Origin: Gammaproteobacteria bacterium
GTDB taxonomy: Bacteria > Pseudomonadota > Gammaproteobacteria > Ga0077536
Length of the DNA stretch: 32,584 nucleotides
Assembly (NCBI GenBank): GCA_019747795.1
Contig: JAIEQK010000069.1
Coordinates: 1-32,584 of the forward strand
Reading direction: 5' to 3'
Shown: in pieces, positions 3,796 to 13,748 of the stretch
Position numbering within the stretch: the stretch's first letter is position 1
How the letters are laid out: each line of letters opens with the position of its first letter
The notes under the pieces: generated by a model
The model's database searches: none
The model's input: only the letters and a program-made list of their open reading frames with translations
Told to the model about the DNA's origin: nothing
Made by a program: the position numbers and the translations under genes

Positions 3796-3838
3796 GTATC
3801 ACCGGCGGTCGCGCATGGCCGCCCGCCCGCGAAAGCGC

Positions 3839-3844
3839 TACCCT
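3839..3844 (+). promoter_or_regulatory. -10-like box (TACCCT) immediately before lhr
   Basis: TACCCT ends six bases before ATG 3851; with standard geometry, transcription would start at or next to that ATG, giving a leaderless mRNA. No -35 is evident. If real, it favours the 3851 start over 3815. Confidence 0.25.
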
Positions 3845-3850
3845 CGGCGC

Positions 3851-6800
3851 ATGCTCCCCGAGTTCTTCGATCCCGCGGTCGCGCGCTGGTTCACGGCGAC
3901 ATTCCCGGCCGCCACGCGCTGCCAGCTGCGCGCCTGGGCCGCGCTTGCCGACGGTCGCCACACCCTGGTCGCGGCGCCCACCGGCTCGGGCAAGACGCTC
4001 GCCGCCTTCCTGGTCGCGCTGAACACGCTCGCCGAGTCCGCGCGGCGCGGCGCGCTGGCGCAGGAGACGGCAATCCTCTACGTCTCGCCGCTGAAGGCGC
4101 TCGGCAACGACATCCAGCGCAACCTCGAGCAGCCCCTCGCCGCCATCCAGGCCCTGCTCGCCGAGGACCTGGGCGAGGCGCCGGCCATCACCACCGCGGT
4201 GCGCAGCGGCGACACCTCCCCATCCGCGCGCCAGCTGATGCGCAAGCGCCCGCCGCACATCCTGGTCACCACGCCCGAATCGCTCTACATCCTGCTGACC
4301 AGCGAGCGTGGTCGCGAGACCCTGCGCACGGTGCGCACGGTGATCATCGACGAGATTCACGCCGTGGTCGGCAACAAGCGCGGCGCGCACCTCGCCTTGA
4401 GCCTCGCGCGGTTGGACGCCTGCGCCGCGAACCCGCCCCAGCGCATCGGCCTGTCCGCCACCCAGCGGCCCATCGAACGGGTGGCCGAGTTCCTGACCGG
4501 CGGACAGGCGCCGTGCGCGATCGTCGACGAGGGTCACGCGCGGGCGCGGGACCTTGCCATCGAGATGCCGCCTTCACCGCTGGAAACGGTGGTGTCCGCC
4601 GAGGTCTCGGCCGAGATTCGCGCGCGCATGGTCGAACTCATCGAGGCCCATCGCAGCACGCTGGTGTTCGTCAACACGCGACGCATGGCCGAGCGTCTCG
4701 CGCGCGCGCTCGCCGACGAACTCGGCGACGGCGCGGTGTGCGCGCACCACGGCAGCATGGCACGCGAGCGGCGCCTGGACGCTGAAACACGCTTGAAGCG
4801 CGGCGAACTGAAGGCCCTGGTGGCGACCGCCTCGCTCGAACTCGGCATCGACGTCGGCGACATCGACCTCGTGTGCCAGCTCGGCACCACGCGCACGCTG
4901 GCGATGATGCTGCAGCGTGTGGGACGCGCCGGCCACGCGGTCGATGGTGTGGCGCGCGGCCGCCTGTTCCCACAGACCCGCGACGAACTGGTGGAGTCCA
5001 TCGCGCAGCTCGACATGGTGAGCCGCGACGAACTCGACAGCGTCGAGATCCCGCCCGGTCCGCGTGACGTGCTGGCGCAGCAGATCGTCGCCGAGGTCGC
5101 GATGGGCGAGCGCGGCTGCGACGAGCTCTACGGCCTGTGCCGGCGCGCCTGGCCCTACCGCGCGCTGGCGCGCGAGGCCTTCGACGGCATCCTGCGCATG
5201 CTGGCCGAAGGCTTCAGCCTGGCCCACGGCCGGCGTTCCGCCTACCTGCATCTCGACGAGGTCAACGGGCGGGTCAGCGCGCGGCGCGGCGCACGCCTGA
5301 CCGCCGTGACCTGCGGCGGCGCGATCCCCGACAACGCCGACTACGACGTCATCGCCGAGCCCCAGGGCGAACTGGTCGGCACGGTGAACGAGGACTTCGC
5401 CATCGAGAGCCTGCCGGGCAACATCTTCCAGCTCGGCAACACCGCGTGGCGCGTGCTGCGCGTCGAGCCCTCGGGGCTGCGCGTCGAGGACGCCGCCGGG
5501 CAACCGCCCAACATGCCCTTCTGGCTGGGCGAGGCGCCGGCACGCAGCGCGGAGTTCTCCTCCGCCGTGGCGCGGCTGCGGCAGCGCGCGGCGGACGCCA
5601 TCGACGCTGGCGCACGCGATCCCGCGGGCCTCGCTGTCGAACTCGCCACCATTCCCGGCGTGGGCGCAGTCGCCGCGCGCCAGGCCGCCGAGTACCTGCT
5701 CACCGGTTACCTGGCGCTCGGCGCGATGCCGACCCAGGACACGCTCGTGATGGAGCGCTTCTTCGACGAGTCGGGCGGCATGCAACTCGTCATCCATTCG
5801 CCTTTCGGCAGCCGGCTCAACAAGGCCTGGGGACTCGCGCTGCGCAAACGCTTCTGCCGCACCTTCAATTTCGAACTGCAGGCGGCGGCGGTGGAAGACG
5901 CCATCGTGCTGTCGCTGGGCGCGGTGCACAGCTTCGATCTCGCCGAGGTGTGGCGCTACCTGCACCCGACCAGCGTGCGCGACGTGCTGGTGCAGGCGGT
6001 GCTGACCGCGCCAATGTTCACCGTACGCTGGCGCTGGGTGGCGGGCTGCGCGCTCGCCATCGAGCGCTTTCGCGCGGGGCGCAAGACGCCGCCGCGCCTG
6101 CTGCGCATGAACGCCGAGGATCTCGCCGCGGTCGTGTTCCCGGACCAGCTCGCGTGCGCGGAGAACCTGGCCGGCCGCCGCGAGGTCCCCGATCACCCGC
6201 TGGTCAACCAGGCGCTGGACGACTGCCTGTTCGAGGCGATGGACATCGCCGCGCTCGAGCAATTGCTGGACGACGTCCACGCCGGACGCAAGCGACTGGT
6301 GGCGCGCGATCTGACCGAGCCATCGCCCTTCGCGCTGCAGGTGCTGAACGCCAACCCCTACGCGTTCCTCGACGACGCGCCGCTGGAAGAGCGGCGCACC
6401 CAGGCGGTGAGCAGCCGGCGCTGGTTGGACGCGGGCAGCGCACGGGATCTCGCCGCGCTCGATCCGGCCGCCATCGAACGGGTGCGGGACGAAGTGTGGC
6501 CACGCGCGCGCGGCCTGGACGAACTGCACGACGCCGTGCTGCTGCTCGGGCTCGTGAGCGACGCTGAACTCGCGAGCTGCGCCGAGCCGGACGCGGTGCC
6601 GCGCCTGCGCGCCTGGCTGGACACGCTGTACGAACAGGGCCGCGTGCTGCGCGTGCGTGGCGCGCGGGCGACGTGGTGCGCGACCGAGAGGCAGCACGAA
6701 GCGCGCGCGCTGCTGGCGAGTGATGCCCTCAGCGGCAGCGCCGCCGCCGAGGCTTTTCGCGCGCCGCCGACGCCACCGCGCGAGGTTGCGCTCGCCGCCC

Positions 6801-8185
6801 TGGTGCGCAGCCGCCTGGAGCTCTGCGGGCCGGTCACGCTGGAGACGCTCGCCGAACATGTACCCGCGACGCCGCGCGAGATCGAGCACGCGCTGCTCGG
6901 TCTCGAACAGGCCGGCATTGCGCTGCGCGGCCAGTTCACGCCGGGCGAGACCGGTCGCGAATGGTGCGATCGGCGTCTGCTCGCGCGCATCCATCGGCTC
7001 ACGCTCAACCGTCTGCGCCAGGAGATCGAGCCGGTCCCGAGCGGCGCCTTCCTGCGCTTCCTCGCCGACTGGCAGCATGTCGCGCAGGACGCCCGCGTCG
7101 AAGGCGCCGGCGGCCTCGGCGCGGTGCTCGCCCAGTTGTCGGGCTTCGAAGCCCCGGCCAGTGCCTGGGAGAGCGACCTCCTGCCGGCGCGGGTGCGAGG
7201 CTACGACGGCCGCTGGCTGGACGATGCGCTGCGCGCCGGGCGCGTGGTGTGGCTACGCCTGAGTCCCAAGCGCAGCGCGGCGCCGCGTCTCGCCGGCACG
7301 CTGCGCTCGACGCCCGTCAGCCTCGTTCTGCGCAGCGAGTTGCCTGCGTGGCTGGCGCTGGCCGGGCAGGACGAGGCGCCGCCGCTCAGCGCGGCGGCGC
7401 GCCAGGTGCTGGCCCACATCGAGAGCCGCGGCGCGGCCTTCTTCGACGACATCGTCGCTGCCGGTGGGCTGTTGCGCAGCCAGGTGGAGAATGCCCTGGA
7501 CGAACTCGCCGCCGCGGGGCTCGTGACCTGCGACAGCTTCACCGGGCTGCGCGCGCTCACCACGCCGGTCGCCAAGCGCAATCCGCTTGGTCGCCGCGCG
7601 CGACGCACGACCTTGCCCGGCATCGAGGATGCGGGGCGCTGGGATCGGGTGCCGCGTCCGGCGAGCGTGGACGAGTCCGCGCTCGACGAGGCCAACATCG
7701 AGGTGCTGGCGCGTGCGCTGCTGCGTCGCTATGGCGTGGTGTTCCGCCGCGTACTCGAGCGCGAAGGCGGCGCGCCGCCCTGGCGCCTGCTGGTGCGAGT
7801 GCTGCGCCGACTGGAAGCGGCGGGCGAGGTCCGTGGTGGACGCTTCGTCGCCGGTGCCACGGGCGAGCAGTTCGCGCTGCCGGAAGCGGTCGGCGCGTTG
7901 CGCGAGTGCGCCCGGCGTGAAGCCGTCGCCGCGCCGCTGCGTCTGAGCCTCGCCGATCCGCTCAACCTCACCGGCGGCGTCCTGCCAGGAGAGCGGCTGG
8001 CGGCGCTGCCCGGCGGGCATTTCGCGCTGCTGCACGGCGAAGCCGTGGCGGTGAAGCAGGGCGCGGAGGTGCGGCTCCTGCGCGAACTGGATGCGGCCGC
8101 CGCGCTGCGCGTCCGCACCGCGCTCATCGGTGGGCTGGGCGGCTCGAGCGCCGGCCTCGGTCCGCGACGCCGGCGTCTGCGCTGA
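3851..8185 (+). CDS. lhr: Lhr-type large DEAD/DEAH ATP-dependent helicase
   Basis: A protein of 1444 aa from the ATG at 3851 (MLPEFFDPAVARWF); the ORF track starts 12 codons earlier at 3815. Neither start has a Shine-Dalgarno, but the family usually begins close to this motif. It shows Walker A APTGSGKT, YVSPLKALGNDIQRNL, VTTPESLY, the DEIH box in VIIDEIHAVVGNKRG, LSATQRP, HHGSMARERR, ASLELGIDVGDIDLV and QRVGRAGH: a complete superfamily 2 motor. It continues through the winged-helix/beta-barrel Lhr core into about 600 further residues, as in the long Lhr of E. coli and Mycobacterium. Lhr is a 3'-5' helicase/translocase linked to DNA repair. It lies 55 bp after the HDOD gene and just before glycerate kinase. 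The reading frame looks intact. Confidence 0.95.
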   Translation: MLPEFFDPAVARWFTATFPAATRCQLRAWAALADGRHTLVAAPTGSGKTLAAFLVALNTLAESARRGALAQETAILYVSPLKALGNDIQRNLEQPLAAIQALLAEDLGEAPAITTAVRSGDTSPSARQLMRKRPPHILVTTPESLYILLTSERGRETLRTVRTVIIDEIHAVVGNKRGAHLALSLARLDACAANPPQRIGLSATQRPIERVAEFLTGGQAPCAIVDEGHARARDLAIEMPPSPLETVVSAEVSAEIRARMVELIEAHRSTLVFVNTRRMAERLARALADELGDGAVCAHHGSMARERRLDAETRLKRGELKALVATASLELGIDVGDIDLVCQLGTTRTLAMMLQRVGRAGHAVDGVARGRLFPQTRDELVESIAQLDMVSRDELDSVEIPPGPRDVLAQQIVAEVAMGERGCDELYGLCRRAWPYRALAREAFDGILRMLAEGFSLAHGRRSAYLHLDEVNGRVSARRGARLTAVTCGGAIPDNADYDVIAEPQGELVGTVNEDFAIESLPGNIFQLGNTAWRVLRVEPSGLRVEDAAGQPPNMPFWLGEAPARSAEFSSAVARLRQRAADAIDAGARDPAGLAVELATIPGVGAVAARQAAEYLLTGYLALGAMPTQDTLVMERFFDESGGMQLVIHSPFGSRLNKAWGLALRKRFCRTFNFELQAAAVEDAIVLSLGAVHSFDLAEVWRYLHPTSVRDVLVQAVLTAPMFTVRWRWVAGCALAIERFRAGRKTPPRLLRMNAEDLAAVVFPDQLACAENLAGRREVPDHPLVNQALDDCLFEAMDIAALEQLLDDVHAGRKRLVARDLTEPSPFALQVLNANPYAFLDDAPLEERRTQAVSSRRWLDAGSARDLAALDPAAIERVRDEVWPRARGLDELHDAVLLLGLVSDAELASCAEPDAVPRLRAWLDTLYEQGRVLRVRGARATWCATERQHEARALLASDALSGSAAAEAFRAPPTPPREVALAALVRSRLELCGPVTLETLAEHVPATPREIEHALLGLEQAGIALRGQFTPGETGREWCDRRLLARIHRLTLNRLRQEIEPVPSGAFLRFLADWQHVAQDARVEGAGGLGAVLAQLSGFEAPASAWESDLLPARVRGYDGRWLDDALRAGRVVWLRLSPKRSAAPRLAGTLRSTPVSLVLRSELPAWLALAGQDEAPPLSAAARQVLAHIESRGAAFFDDIVAAGGLLRSQVENALDELAAAGLVTCDSFTGLRALTTPVAKRNPLGRRARRTTLPGIEDAGRWDRVPRPASVDESALDEANIEVLARALLRRYGVVFRRVLEREGGAPPWRLLVRVLRRLEAAGEVRGGRFVAGATGEQFALPEAVGALRECARREAVAAPLRLSLADPLNLTGGVLPGERLAALPGGHFALLHGEAVAVKQGAEVRLLRELDAAAALRVRTALIGGLGGSSAGLGPRRRRLR

Positions 8186-8199
8186 GCGCGCAGTCCGGC

Positions 8200-9348
8200 A
8201 TGAAGATCGTTCTCGCCCCTGATTCGTTCAAGGAGAGCTTGCCAGCCGCCGAGGTCGCCGCCGCGCTGGCCGAAGGCCTGGCACTGGCCCTGCCCGACGC
8301 GCGCCTGGTGTGCGTACCGGTGGCGGACGGTGGCGAAGGCACGTTGGACGCGCTGCTCGCGGCCACCGGCGGCCACGCGTACCCGGTGACCGTGCAAGGC
8401 CCGCTCGTCGGCACGGTGACGGCGCGCCTGGGCGTGCTGGGTGACGACGAAGTGGCGGTGATCGAATCGGCGCAGGCCGCCGGCTTGGCGCTCGTACCGC
8501 AAACTCTCAGGGACCCGATGCGGACCACGTCTTTCGGCATCGGCGAACTCGTGCTCGCGGCCCTGGACCGCGGACTGCGGCGCTTCGTGGTGTGCCTGGG
8601 TGGCACGGCCACGGTCGATGGAGGCGCCGGCATGCTGCAGGCGCTGGGGGCGGTGTTCCTGGACGCGCAGGGACGGCCGCTGGCGGCGCCCTTGCGCGGC
8701 GCCGACCTGGACCAGGTGGCGGGCGTGCGATTGGACCGCTTCGACCCACGCGTCGTCGCGAGCGACTTTCAGATCGCCTGCGACGTCGACAATCCTCTCA
8801 CCGGGCCACTGGGCGCCGCCGCCGTGTTCGGTCCGCAGAAGGGCGCGACGCCGACGCAGATCCCGCGCCTGGACGCGGGGCTCGACAAGCTCCACCGCGC
8901 GCTTGCAGTCAGTACCGGCCGACAGGTGGCCGAGTTGCCCGGCGCCGGTGCGGCAGGTGGCCTCGGTGCCGCCGCCCTGGCCTGCCTCCCCGGAGGACTG
9001 CGTCCAGGCATCGACCTGGTGATGGACGCGGTCGGTCTCGCCGGCCATCTCGTCGACGCCGACCTTGTGGTGACGGGGGAGGGCAGGGTGGACAGCCAGA
9101 CCCTCCACGGCAAGGCGCCGGCCGGCGTTGCCCGCCTTGCGCGCTCGCTCGGCGTGCCGGTGATCGCGGTCGGCGGCAGCCTGCCGGCCGACCGGAACCT
9201 GCTGCTGGACGAGACCTTCGACGCCTTCGAATCAGTCGTCACCAACCCCTGTGACCTGGCCGAGGCCCTGGCAAATGCCCGTCCGCAACTGGTGGCGGCC
9301 GGTGTACGTGTCGGCCGCTGGCTGACTCTGCTCGACACCCGCCCCTAG
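8200..9348 (+). CDS. Glycerate kinase (GarK/GlxK family)
   Basis: The 382-aa ORF begins MKIVLAPDSFKESLPAAEVA, the canonical N-terminus of type I glycerate kinases. Other family blocks are VPVADGGEGTLDALLAATGG, a GGTATVDGGAGMLQALGA glycine-rich block, CDVDNPLTGPLGAAAVFGPQKGA, and VVTGEGRVDSQTLHGKAP near the C-terminus. The enzyme phosphorylates D-glycerate (usually to 2-phosphoglycerate in this class), feeding glyoxylate, tartronate or serine-derived carbon into central metabolism in the cytoplasm. It starts 14 bp after the lhr stop, so it is probably cotranscribed. No tartronate semialdehyde reductase or hydroxypyruvate isomerase genes are adjacent, so the upstream pathway cannot be read from context. 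Confidence 0.94.
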   Translation: MKIVLAPDSFKESLPAAEVAAALAEGLALALPDARLVCVPVADGGEGTLDALLAATGGHAYPVTVQGPLVGTVTARLGVLGDDEVAVIESAQAAGLALVPQTLRDPMRTTSFGIGELVLAALDRGLRRFVVCLGGTATVDGGAGMLQALGAVFLDAQGRPLAAPLRGADLDQVAGVRLDRFDPRVVASDFQIACDVDNPLTGPLGAAAVFGPQKGATPTQIPRLDAGLDKLHRALAVSTGRQVAELPGAGAAGGLGAAALACLPGGLRPGIDLVMDAVGLAGHLVDADLVVTGEGRVDSQTLHGKAPAGVARLARSLGVPVIAVGGSLPADRNLLLDETFDAFESVVTNPCDLAEALANARPQLVAAGVRVGRWLTLLDTRP

Positions 9349-9450
9349 AACGTTCCTTCGCTCTGATGATGTTCTGATCACCCGTTCGGGCAAAAAAATT
9401 TTGTTCGAGGTTTGCATACGGGAAGAAATGGGGCGTGCGGTCCGGTTCCC

Positions 9451-9521
9451 GAACTTCGAAGGTGGTTCGCATCCTTCGTGTTCGAGATGTATCTTGCGAA
9501 GATTATCCATGCGTACGGGAA
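9451..9521 (+). promoter_or_regulatory. Candidate hipBA control region: inverted repeats and -35/-10-like pair
   Basis: The 177-bp gap before hipB (9349-9525) is AT-rich relative to its surroundings. It holds an imperfect inverted repeat GAACTTCGAAGG...CCTTCGTGTTC (9451-9483), a weak TTCGCA-N18-TATCTT promoter-like pair (9466-9495), and TATCC-N8-GGGAA (9504-9521), which matches 8 of 10 fixed positions of the E. coli HipB operator TATCC-N8-GGATA. TACGGGAA also occurs twice (near 9417 and 9514). The GGGA next to the start doubles as Shine-Dalgarno. HipB-family autorepression is the family expectation; binding here is inference. Confidence 0.4.
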
Positions 9522-9525
9522 ATTT

Positions 9526-9744
9526 ATGTCTCCGGAAGAGTTCGGTCGCCTCGTTCGTGCCGAAAGGCGGCAACAGAAACTCAGGCAGGGCGAATTGGCC
9601 GCGCTGGCGGGGGTCGGTAATCGTTTCCTGTCCGACCTCGAGAACGGCAAGCCGACGGTCGAACTGGGGCGGGCGCTCCAGGTGCTGGGCATGCTGGGCC
9701 TCACGATGAGTGTCAGGCCTCGCGACTGGCGGGACGTCGAGTAA
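9526..9744 (+). CDS. hipB: HipB-like XRE family transcriptional regulator (antitoxin-type)
   Basis: A 72-aa protein starting at ATG 9526 (MSPEEFGRLVRAERRQQK), preceded by GGGA at suitable spacing; the longer 110-aa ORF has no such site and its extra N-terminus does not look like protein. It is essentially one helix-turn-helix of the Cro/CI (XRE) type: LRQGELAALAGVGNRFLSDLENGKPTVELGRALQVLGMLGL, close to HipB of hipBA modules. HipB dimers bind operators upstream of the pair and bind HipA. The hipA ATG follows its TAA stop by five bases. In classical modules HipB is the antitoxin and repressor; here its partner looks catalytically inactive, so the antitoxin label is only by family. Confidence 0.88.
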   Translation: MSPEEFGRLVRAERRQQKLRQGELAALAGVGNRFLSDLENGKPTVELGRALQVLGMLGLTMSVRPRDWRDVE

Positions 9745-9749
9745 GGGAC

Positions 9750-11051
9750 ATGCAATACACGCAACTCGATGTCCATCTCGCCGGGCGGCGCGTCGGCCGC
9801 TTGAGCGAATCGCCGTCGGGCCAATGGTCCTTCGTGTATGCCGCCGCGCCGGCCGACCCGCCGCCGGCGCCCATCTCGCTCGCGCTGCCGCGGCACCAGA
9901 ATGCCTACCACGGCGACCGCGTGCGGGCGGTGTTCGCCAACCTGCTGCCGGAGGGGGAAATCCGGCTACGGCTGACCCAGAGTCTCGGCATCTCGGAACG
10001 CAACGACTTCGCTCTGCTGGCACGCCTGGCTGGCGACTGCGCAGGGGCTCTCAGCCTGCGCGCGCCCGACGCCCCGCCCGCGGATCGCCGCCCGCCCCGT
10101 GCGTTGAACGACGCGGAACTGCGCAACGCCATGGCCATCCTGCCGGTGCATCCGCTGCTCGCGGAGGCCGACGGCCTGCGCGTCACCTTGCCTGGCGAGT
10201 TCGACAAGCTGCCGGTGCGCTTCGCGGACGGTCAGGCGACGCTGATGCTGGACGGCGGACTCACCACCCACATCCTCAAGCCGGCGCGGCCCGGGCTGCG
10301 CGAGTCGGTGGTGAACGAGGCCTACACCAGCGAACTGGCGGCGGCCTTTGGTCTGCCCGTGGCGCGTTGCGAAGTGATCCACGGCCAGGTCGCCGTGCTG
10401 TGCGTGACGCGCGTCGACCGGGAGTCCGACGCGGACGGCGTACGTGCGCTCCCGATGGAAGACTTCTGCCAGGTGGCGGGCCTCAGCCCCCATCAGAAGT
10501 TCACGCGCGAAGGCGGACTGGGCCTGCCGGCCATCGCGCGCATCCTGCGCGATGTCAGCGCGCGCCCGGCGGCCGATCTCCGCGCCCTGATCCAGTGGAC
10601 CATCTTCTGCTTCCTGGTCGGCTTCGGCGCTGCGCATTGCAAGCAGATAGCCCTGCGTCACGGGCCGCGCGCGCCACGCCTGGCGCCGTTCTTCGGGCTG
10701 TGGTCGACCCACGTCTACCCCGGCATGAACTACCGCATGGGCTTTCCGGTCGGCGGGGAGGATCGTCCGGACTGGATGACCGCCGGTCGGTGGCTGGAAT
10801 TCGGACGTCAGATCGGTGTGCGGCCGGTGTATGTGCTGGAGTCGCTGCGTGATGCCGCTGCGAGCCTGCCGCGCCTTGCCGCGGACGTGGAGGAACGCTT
10901 CCAGAAGCAGAACGGCTACGCGGCCATCGTCAAACAGATCCGGGCACTGATCGATCAGCGCGCGCGCCAGGTGCTGGTGTCGATCGAAGCGGAGACCGCG
11001 CGCGGCGAGGAGATGCCACTCGCGGAGGCGGAGGGGCCGACGTCGGCCTGA
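9750..11051 (+). CDS. hipA: HipA-family protein with degenerate active site (predicted pseudokinase)
   Basis: 433 aa, full HipA length, with AAGGGA just before the ATG. Family blocks are clear: FANLLPEGEIRLRL, ISERNDFALLARLAGDCAGAL (N-terminal subdomain), TTHILKP carrying the ATP-binding Lys (about residue 177), NEAYTSELAAAFGLPVARCEV, MEDFCQVAGL. Canonical HipA is a Ser/Thr kinase (E. coli HipA phosphorylates GltX) whose catalytic loop reads IGxxDAHxKN and whose metal site reads APFYD. Here these are VGFGAAHCKQ and APFFG: Asp309, Asn314 and Asp332 of E. coli correspond to Ala294, Gln299 and Gly316. The autophosphorylated Ser150 aligns with Thr146. The frame is uninterrupted, so this is not a simple pseudogene. 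It probably binds HipB but should not phosphorylate by the usual mechanism. Confidence 0.9.
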   Translation: MQYTQLDVHLAGRRVGRLSESPSGQWSFVYAAAPADPPPAPISLALPRHQNAYHGDRVRAVFANLLPEGEIRLRLTQSLGISERNDFALLARLAGDCAGALSLRAPDAPPADRRPPRALNDAELRNAMAILPVHPLLAEADGLRVTLPGEFDKLPVRFADGQATLMLDGGLTTHILKPARPGLRESVVNEAYTSELAAAFGLPVARCEVIHGQVAVLCVTRVDRESDADGVRALPMEDFCQVAGLSPHQKFTREGGLGLPAIARILRDVSARPAADLRALIQWTIFCFLVGFGAAHCKQIALRHGPRAPRLAPFFGLWSTHVYPGMNYRMGFPVGGEDRPDWMTAGRWLEFGRQIGVRPVYVLESLRDAAASLPRLAADVEERFQKQNGYAAIVKQIRALIDQRARQVLVSIEAETARGEEMPLAEAEGPTSA

Positions 11052-11054
11052 GAC

Positions 11055-11933
11055 TCAGGACGCGAGCGCGGTGGGCGGCACGTAGGTGCCGTGGGCGGAG
11101 ACGTCGGTCAGCACGATCACGTCGCCGTCCAGCGGTTGCGCGAGCAGGTGCTTGCGCGAGACGTTGCGGAAGTCGGCGTCGAGCGGCACGTCGTTGTCGC
11201 GACCGCGACCGACCGAATTGACGCCCGGGTGCAGCGTGTAGCACTTGCCGTCGTCGGTCATGAGGCTCCAGCCGCGCTGGTGGCTCAGTGAGAACCGGTG
11301 ACGCGCGAGCTTGAGCGAGATGCTGGCGCCGCGCGCGAGCTTGATGGTCACGGCTTCGCCTGGCGGCAGCCGACGAAGCTCGTCGCGCTCGAACTGGGCC
11401 GTGGTCTGGTCCGCGCTGAACACCAGGGTCGGCTGAGGATGGGCCATCGCGGGCGCCGGCCGCCTCGAGTCACGCACCAGCGCGAGCACATCGCGCCGTG
11501 CGGCGAGGTAGGCGAGATAGGCGTCGACGGCGACGCGCAGATAGCTTTCTTCGGCGCGCGGGCGCTCCAGCAGCGCCGCGAACATCACCCGCCAGTCATG
11601 GTCCTTGCTGAACACCGCCACGCCGAGTTCATCCAGCGCCGCGGCGTAACTGCCCGCGCCCGCTTCGCAGCGCGCGCGCAATTCGGTGAGACGCCGCTCC
11701 AGGGCGACGATGCCGCGCGCTTCTTCCTCCAGGTCGGCGGCCGCGCGGTGCTGCCAGTCATGGATCCGGGCCGGCGTCACACCGGTGCGCGCAGCCAGCG
11801 CGAAGGCGAAATCGGCCGGCGCGTCGAAGCGCAGGCGCTGTCCGCCCAGGCGTAACTCCACGGCCGGTCCGGCCTTGGCGAACCAGCCGGCGAGACCGCC
11901 CTTCAGGAAGTTCTTGAGGAGAGTGAAAACCAT
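11055..11933 (-). CDS. FHA domain-containing protein
   Basis: A 292-aa protein convergent with hipA, three bases between the stops. The last ~65 residues are a forkhead-associated domain: LHPGVNSVGRGRDNDVPLD, NVSRKHLLAQ and LTDVSAHGTYVPP match the FHA GR, SxxH and DxSxxGTxV motifs that contact phosphothreonine peptides. Upstream is an alpha-helical, Arg/Glu/Ala-rich region (HRAAADLEEEARGIVALERRLTELRARCEAG, coiled-coil-like). The N-terminus FTLLKNFLKGGLAGWFAKAG is amphipathic, not a signal peptide. No kinase or other catalytic domain is seen. FHA proteins recruit phosphorylated partners; the partner kinase is unknown. The adjacent HipA-like protein is tempting but looks kinase-dead and is on the other strand. 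No strong Shine-Dalgarno at 11933. Confidence 0.8.
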   Translation of the reverse strand: MVFTLLKNFLKGGLAGWFAKAGPAVELRLGGQRLRFDAPADFAFALAARTGVTPARIHDWQHRAAADLEEEARGIVALERRLTELRARCEAGAGSYAAALDELGVAVFSKDHDWRVMFAALLERPRAEESYLRVAVDAYLAYLAARRDVLALVRDSRRPAPAMAHPQPTLVFSADQTTAQFERDELRRLPPGEAVTIKLARGASISLKLARHRFSLSHQRGWSLMTDDGKCYTLHPGVNSVGRGRDNDVPLDADFRNVSRKHLLAQPLDGDVIVLTDVSAHGTYVPPTALAS

Positions 11934-12488: not shown

Positions 12489-13748
12489 ATGGCCTACAAG
12501 TTCTCCACCCTGGCCTCGCGCTATGTCGGGCACACCGGCACACGCCTGTTGATGGATGACCTCGGCGAGGCCCTGGAAAGCGATCGCGACCTGTGCAACC
12601 TCGGGGGCGGCAATCCCGCGCGCATCCCCGCGATGGACGAAGTGTTCCGCGCGGCCATGGCGCGCGAACTGGAAAGCGGCGCGTTCACCCGACTGGCGGC
12701 GGTCTACGACGGGCCGCAGGGCTACAGGCCCTTCCTGCGTGCGGTCGCGGGCCTGTTTCGACGCCATTTCGGCTGGCCGATAACCGAGGAGCACGTCGCC
12801 GTCACCGCCGGCAGCCAATCGAGCTTCTTCATGCTGTTCAACCTGTTCAGCGGCGAGGGTGCCGACGGCGTGATGCGTCACCTGCGCCTGCCGCTGACGC
12901 CGGAGTACATCGGCTATGGAGACCTGGCGGCGCGCCCGGACGCCATCGTGTCCTCGCGCCCCAGCATCGAACTGCGCGATGGGCGCGACTTCAAGTATCA
13001 CATCGACTTCGACGCCTTGACCCTGGGACCCGAGACCGGCGCGGTGTGTGTGAGTCGCCCGACCAATCCGACCGGCAACGTGCTGTCCCAGGACGAAGTG
13101 GCGCGGCTCATGACGCTGACCGGCGAGGCCGACGTGCCGCTGATCCTGGACAACGCCTACGGCGCGCCCTTTCCCAACATCCTGTTCGCGGCCGGCGAAC
13201 CGCTGTACGCGCAGCACCTGGTGTACTGCCTGAGCCTGTCCAAGCTCGGATTGCCCGGGCTGCGCACCGGCATCGTAATCGCGCACCCGGAGCTCATCGA
13301 GGCGCTGCGCAGCTTCAATGCGATTCTCACCCTGGCCTCCAGCAGCCTGGGCGCGAGCCTGGTGACGCCCCTGTTCGAGAGCGGCGAGGTGCTGCGCCTG
13401 GCCAACGAAGTGGTGCAACCGTTTTACCGAGAGCGCGCCGCGCTGGCCGTGGCCTGGTGTCACCGCTACCTCGCGGACACGCCGTTCCGCATCCACGTGG
13501 CGGAGGGCGCGATCTTCCTGTGGCTGTGGTTTCCCGGTCTGCCGGTGAGCTCACAGCGGCTCTATGAACGACTCAAGGCGCGCAACGTGCTGGTCATTCC
13601 CGGGCAGTATTTCTTCCCGGGCCTGGCCGAACCTTGGGATCACCGCGACGAGTGCCTGCGGATCTCCTACGCGCAATCGGCGCGCGAGGTCGAGCAAGGC
13701 ATCGCGATTCTCGGCGAGGAAGTGCGTCGCGCCTACGCCGAAGGGTGA
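12489..13748 (+). CDS. avtA: Valine-pyruvate transaminase (AvtA)
   Basis: 419 aa, the length of E. coli AvtA, and similar along the whole chain: GHTGTRLLMDDLGEAL at the start, LGGGNPARIPAMDEVF, YDGPQGYRPFL, TAGSQSSFFMLFNLFSGEGADG, PLTPEYIGYGD, CVSRPTNPTGNVLS, DNAYGAPFPNILF, then the PLP lysine in CLSLSKLGLPGLRTG, and EGAIFLWLWFPGLP near the C-terminus. This fold-type I aminotransferase (class I/II) interconverts valine plus pyruvate with 2-oxoisovalerate plus alanine in the cytoplasm, linking alanine and branched-chain amino acid pools. The gene stands alone: divergent from a membrane protein, convergent with sohB six bases after its stop. Confidence 0.95.
   Translation: MAYKFSTLASRYVGHTGTRLLMDDLGEALESDRDLCNLGGGNPARIPAMDEVFRAAMARELESGAFTRLAAVYDGPQGYRPFLRAVAGLFRRHFGWPITEEHVAVTAGSQSSFFMLFNLFSGEGADGVMRHLRLPLTPEYIGYGDLAARPDAIVSSRPSIELRDGRDFKYHIDFDALTLGPETGAVCVSRPTNPTGNVLSQDEVARLMTLTGEADVPLILDNAYGAPFPNILFAAGEPLYAQHLVYCLSLSKLGLPGLRTGIVIAHPELIEALRSFNAILTLASSSLGASLVTPLFESGEVLRLANEVVQPFYRERAALAVAWCHRYLADTPFRIHVAEGAIFLWLWFPGLPVSSQRLYERLKARNVLVIPGQYFFPGLAEPWDHRDECLRISYAQSAREVEQGIAILGEEVRRAYAEG

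Follow-up and report, generated by a model that had tools for sequence, protein, structure and literature searches.

A hipBA-like operon in a conserved chromosomal neighborhood

The window analyzed here, a 32,584-nt stretch of gammaproteobacterial DNA, carries a hipA-like gene on the forward strand (9750-11051) that begins with ATG and runs uninterrupted for 433 aa. Pfam detected Couple_hipA (87.8 bits) and HipA_C (109.4 bits) in its product, both well over the cut-off, and the translation, an AlphaFold2 model, and its best PDB fold matches likewise placed a HipA N-terminal domain ahead of a HipA_C kinase fold. Directly upstream lies hipB (9526-9744, forward strand), which encodes a 72-aa HTH_3 protein of the Y4mF antitoxin type with the conserved recognition-helix region GVGNRFLSDLENGK, scored 73.0 bits against TIGR03070 (couple_hipB; cut-off 71.65), and stops 5 nt ahead of hipA. 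The first-pass annotation, made from the sequence of the window, had described an intact, full-length reading frame beside hipB, and this description was confirmed. For hipB, ATG 9526 is the probable start over longer in-frame starts, judging from the alignment with same-genus orthologues. The pair is flanked upstream by lhr, encoding an Lhr-type helicase (3815-8185), and the glycerate kinase gene glxK (8200-9348; Pfam), and downstream by avtA, encoding valine-pyruvate transaminase (12489-13748), all on the forward strand and all identified as syntenic neighbors in our comparison. Between hipA and avtA, a reverse-strand gene that only part of the family keeps (11055-11933; Pfam and synteny comparison) converges on the dead kinase gene; it encodes an FHA-domain protein of the phosphothreonine-binding type and was retained in genome G011, where hipBA is absent.

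Replacement of the catalytic residues

Alignment of the window protein with the E. coli K-12 HipA reference (MG1655 record) and about 40 homologues located the catalytic loop, VGFGAAHCKQ, and the metal site, LAPFFG, within codons 290-317 (10617-10700, forward strand). In this alignment, Asp309, Asn314, and Asp332 of E. coli HipA correspond to Ala294, Gln299, and Gly316, and the autophosphorylated Ser150 to Thr146, exactly as the first-pass annotation had claimed. Under established kinase chemistry, a HipA of the window type, which has lost the general base together with its two metal ligands, would be very unlikely to carry out phosphotransfer. A kinase fold without its key catalytic residues, as indicated by the alignment, the AlphaFold2 model, and the fold matches, defines a pseudokinase. 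The Gly-rich loop region (VTLPGEFDKL, codons 145-154; 10182-10211, forward strand, by alignment) was altered as well, with Pro148 and Phe151 in place of Ala152 and Gln155 in addition to Thr146; the change from Ala152 to Pro was found in 94% of the whole pseudokinase clade described below, and the position of Ser150 varies over the clade, with Thr, Ser, Val, and Leu among its residues. Thr146 may be phosphorylated by some other kinase.

Several other features of the old active site persist in the nearer group of 10 pseudokinase sequences, in which K177 (equivalent to Lys181) and the loop residues Gly149 and Lys153 were invariant, and His296 and Lys298 were nearly so. In this group, Asn314 had been replaced by Gln and Asp332 by Gly in 10/10, replacements too regular to be noise. 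The earlier statement that a MEDFCQ hinge is kept proved imprecise: the segment aligns to E. coli residues 252-257, where active HipAs read QED[FM]CQ, and its first residue, Gln252, which is invariant in the active set, has become Met in the window's group. Residues newly conserved in the clade include W26, R253, R278, H321, EDRPDW (337-342), and RARQ (404-407).

AlphaFold2 was run on the window protein (pLDDT 92.6, pTM 0.91) and on a strongly degenerate member from genus g4 (pLDDT 88.4, pTM 0.90), and both models had HipA as their best PDB fold match (TM about 0.8-0.86), including HipA D309Q with ADP bound (3tpt) and the Shewanella HipBA-operator complexes. The HipA fold is thus predicted to be retained in the pseudokinases; the models, predicted with HipA homologues among the aligned sequences, show a compatible fold, not a function.

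A single origin and vertical fixation

Orthologues at the lhr-glxK-hipB-hipA-avtA locus were found in 18 of the 36 family genomes examined. Their identity to the window HipA was 76-77% for two genomes of its genus and 35-58% for the family's other genera. The equivalents of Asp309 and Asn314 were absent from all 18 and that of Asp332 from 16, and the reading frame was open in every case. The two exceptions, both from g4, keep Asp332 alone (FSD at the metal site), a site that varies within this genus. Homologues with the normal residue set, which the first-pass annotation had named as counterevidence, were therefore missing among the orthologues (0/18), and the HipA tree that it had proposed united the 18 in one clade with maximum-likelihood support of 100/100, placing the loss as one change on the tree. 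For comparison, HipAs were taken from genomes of the class (369) and the phylum (399) and from four plasmids; they had intact DxHxKN and (Y)D motifs (4/4 for the plasmid proteins) with L132 as the sole exception. This HipA (G193:C117:4566-5774), which belongs to another family (f2), carries a single Asp309-to-Asn change (HNAHAKN, LAPFCD) and possibly reflects an independent, partial loss of activity. Window-clade HipAs shared just 30-40% identity with their active relatives. A mobile origin was considered and rejected, as the nearer group had no relatives among viral contigs and plasmid matches reached at most about 38% identity.

Genus g4 is a subgroup that has degenerated further: its HipAs also lack the Gly-rich loop and the Lys of the ATP site. 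In its members L011-L014, L016-L018, and L023, the Lys is replaced by Arg, the Gly-rich loop and MED segment are altered, and the catalytic loops read, for example, GNGLATARD or GNGLANGNA; hipB, synteny, and the operator are nonetheless retained. Two metagenome-assembled records titled 'Klebsiella pneumoniae' (L030 and L038) are probably mislabelled, since genome kinship places both in the window's family.

The loci of the 17 other genomes followed the order lhr-(glxK)-hipB-hipA-(FHA gene)-avtA-(sohB) up to the contig limits. In all 18, hipB lay directly upstream of hipA, overlapping it by 4 to 23 nt in most. Four genomes (G004, G009, G011, and G012) had recognizable parts of the block without both hipB and hipA but never without one alone, G025 being left out of this count because its contig stops too early. 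The absence of the two genes only as a pair suggests that their products work together. The pair is also missing, through loss or otherwise, from several members of the family and is therefore dispensable. The window's genome contained zero other HipA_C proteins, as did several other carriers, whereas some carriers had an active HipA elsewhere in the genome.

Purifying selection on both genes

Across three same-genus species, dN/dS was 0.06-0.16 for hipA and 0.04-0.13 for hipB, compared with 0.11-0.23 for lhr, 0.22-0.38 for glxK, and 0.09-0.18 for avtA, all of these values being rough because synonymous sites are near saturation. The ratio for hipA did not exceed those of its neighbors, and relaxed evolution, another outcome that would have counted against the initial reading, was not indicated in these species. 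In addition, Asp276 (E. coli Asp291) was invariant in 18/18 pseudokinases versus 67% of active HipAs, as expected if selection maintains DNA assembly rather than catalysis. Comparison of the sequences thus strongly supports a HipA pseudokinase that is catalytically dead yet maintained. Gene decay, to which the absence of the gene from some relatives might point, was rejected, and we regard its probability as practically negligible given the low dN/dS, the 18 open frames, substitutions fixed across genera, and the single ancient origin in the tree.

HipB and a candidate operator

The HipBs of the pseudokinase clade and those of the nearest active modules have in common the recognition-helix region GVGxRFxSxLENGK. 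Upstream of hipB, a TTCCCGTACGGGAA-like palindrome was found at 12-13 of 14 positions in 11/18 pseudokinase operons, a level that shuffled sequences almost never reached. The consensus was first drawn from a few pseudokinase loci, and active modules were not used in defining it; the presence of TTCCCGTACGGGAA in the nearest active hipBA modules, with 14/14 matches in three of them (L130, L215, and L218), therefore validates the site independently. Active modules with this operator type are widespread, plasmids included. The match in the window's own hipB promoter is weaker than in most of its relatives, the best candidate being an operator-like site, TTTGCATACGGGAA (9411-9424), that matches TTCCCGTACGGGAA at only 11/14 positions (shuffle frequency, 0.03), accompanied by a second half-site, CATGCGTACGGGAA (9508-9521; 10/14), immediately 5' of hipB.

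Comparison with known systems

Kinase activity is regarded as the function of HipA, the prototype among persistence toxins. The pseudokinase operon shares with the type II HipBA module (Y4mF-type HipB) its gene order, both HipA domains, a predicted full HipA fold, the HTH protein HipB, and, clearly in most relatives but only weakly in the window itself, the operator type of the nearest active modules. It differs in that all three residues of catalysis and metal binding, as well as the Ser of autophosphorylation, are replaced in the window, in the clade-specific conserved motifs (W26, EDRPDW, and RARQ), and in its vertical inheritance at one fixed locus. Single-residue versions of these losses have been engineered: HipT D233Q, in which the equivalent metal Asp is mutated, is enzymatically inactive (PMC6581861), and HipBST containing it still assembles and represses its promoter (PMC10627512), while HipA D309Q keeps its fold. 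Unlike these laboratory mutants, the pseudokinase has changed naturally at three sites plus Ser150, with the changes fixed family-wide. The hipA7 mutations of E. coli comprise G22S, held in a review to spoil the HipA:HipB:operator complex, and D291A (PMC7180214).

The concept of a regulatory toxin-antitoxin pair without activity has a precedent in MtvTA, reported to be a direct regulator (PMC11826091). MtvT/MtvA, encoded on plasmid pPAD8, lacks detectable toxicity, and its complex regulates other promoters, which matches our working model. It is, however, a plasmid-borne single system, likened here by behavior rather than by demonstrated kinship; we know of no family-wide fixation of MtvT/MtvA. 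The HipA-homologous families, including HipT, HipH, HipE, HipF, and HipL (Gerdes et al. 2021), have the HipA kinase fold in common with the pseudokinase. In the consulted passages of a comprehensive HipA phylogeny, the four kinase motifs are described as conserved in the families discussed, and the pseudokinase clade was not found there (PMC8262856). Since a full-text search of the open-licence literature likewise found no HipA 'pseudokinase' clade, a family-wide, single-origin HipA pseudokinase appears, as far as checked within that literature, to be new.

A probable domesticated toxin-antitoxin module

We consider it probable that an old toxin-antitoxin module has become a non-catalytic HipB-HipA DNA-binding regulator in which HipA serves as the architectural partner. 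The toxin kinase of an ancestral hipBA operon would have lost catalysis in one event no later than the base of the bacterial family, after which the dead hipA and its hipB would have been fixed at one chromosomal locus by vertical inheritance. HipB would still recognize operators of the ancestral kind; the HipA fold would have kept its pairing with HipB and would act as a non-enzymatic corepressor or stabilizer of the HipB-DNA complex; and the complete assembly would regulate its own operon and probably a few further genes. The data show the loss of catalytic residues, its single origin, the purifying selection, and, by prediction, an intact fold; obligate co-occurrence, gene coupling, and conserved sites suggest that HipB pairing and operator recognition are retained. 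A pseudokinase kept as the partner of HipB rather than as a classical toxin, as initially proposed, is accordingly supported by the single clade, synteny, purifying selection, hipB pairing, and predicted fold. The corepressor role is the best supported of the options offered at that stage, though unproven: HipB alone was enough for repression in HipBST (PMC10627512), implying that corepression is not a necessary role of a HipA-like protein. Against a regulator stand the lack of conservation in the pseudokinases of E. coli HipA Lys379 and Arg382, which we take to be HipA-DNA contacts, the 11/14 site as the best match in the window's own hipB promoter, the failure to find a regulon, and the dispensability of the pair.

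A bolder and more tentative version, to which we give less credence, holds that one domestication event turned the toxin kinase into a transcription factor that is family-wide and responds to a ligand. The dead HipA kinase domain would sense a partner or metabolite, perhaps a nucleotide in the nearer group, and thereby control the assembly of HipB on DNA at a limited number of promoters. A rival explanation, in which the nearer group binds a nucleotide or another metabolite in the old ATP pocket and so switches the HipB-DNA complex, draws on the conserved pocket residues of these 10 sequences and on the match to ADP-bound HipA D309Q, but we judge it unlikely, as both metal ligands are missing from this group and g4 kept hipB, synteny, and the operator after losing the Lys and the loop. 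The nucleotide sensor of the first-pass annotation thus survives as a possibility in the nearer group, where the K181 equivalent is invariant, and fails as the common function of the clade, given the loss of the ATP-site Lys in g4. The old active-site loop, with its conserved His, Lys, and Gln in the nearer group, and the appearance of motifs such as EDRPDW might also be read as signs of an unconventional enzyme that uses other catalytic residues or another transfer chemistry on the same fold. This reading is very improbable, because no acidic residue has replaced the lost general base and metal ligands at those sites and the conservation of the loop does not extend into g4.

A decoy or antitoxin that counters active HipA toxins, whether siblings or carried by mobile elements, by forming mixed dimers or by competing for the operator or HipB, would fit the wide distribution of active modules with the same operator type and the active HipAs found elsewhere in some carriers. 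We nevertheless regard it as improbable, and the immunity-type decoy suggested earlier as disfavored, because no further HipA_C protein occurs in the window's genome or in several of the other carriers; the low identity to active relatives also counts against it. Constant pairing with hipB, joint absence, and the usual gene overlap would equally suit a non-catalytic toxin that HipB neutralizes and that binds a target, for example an aminoacyl-tRNA synthetase, to stop growth, but toxicity of Legionella HipT strictly depends on kinase activity (PMC9325769), and vertical fixation at a single locus is unlike a mobile addiction module, which leaves this explanation quite improbable.

Under the regulator model, what was once a toxin now probably belongs to a complex that regulates genes in a poorly described family of Gammaproteobacteria. 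With catalysis lost once and the module, partner, operator, and locus kept, the clade offers a natural separation of the regulatory job of HipA from its toxic job, makes the role of a HipBA complex without kinase activity directly testable, and provides a clean case of a toxin-antitoxin module turned resident chromosomal system.

A regulatory role beyond autoregulation may exist, but no regulon was found: a pattern search of 16 genomes at no more than 2 mismatches yielded at most 3 sites per genome, with no strong operator-like site found genome-wide in the window's own genome. In two same-genus genomes, operator-like sites cluster 3' of a biotin-dependent carboxylase gene (L200:4118-4253 in G002:C6 and L201:1709-1797 in G001:C386), followed by different next genes; these clusters are a possible second target of HipB.
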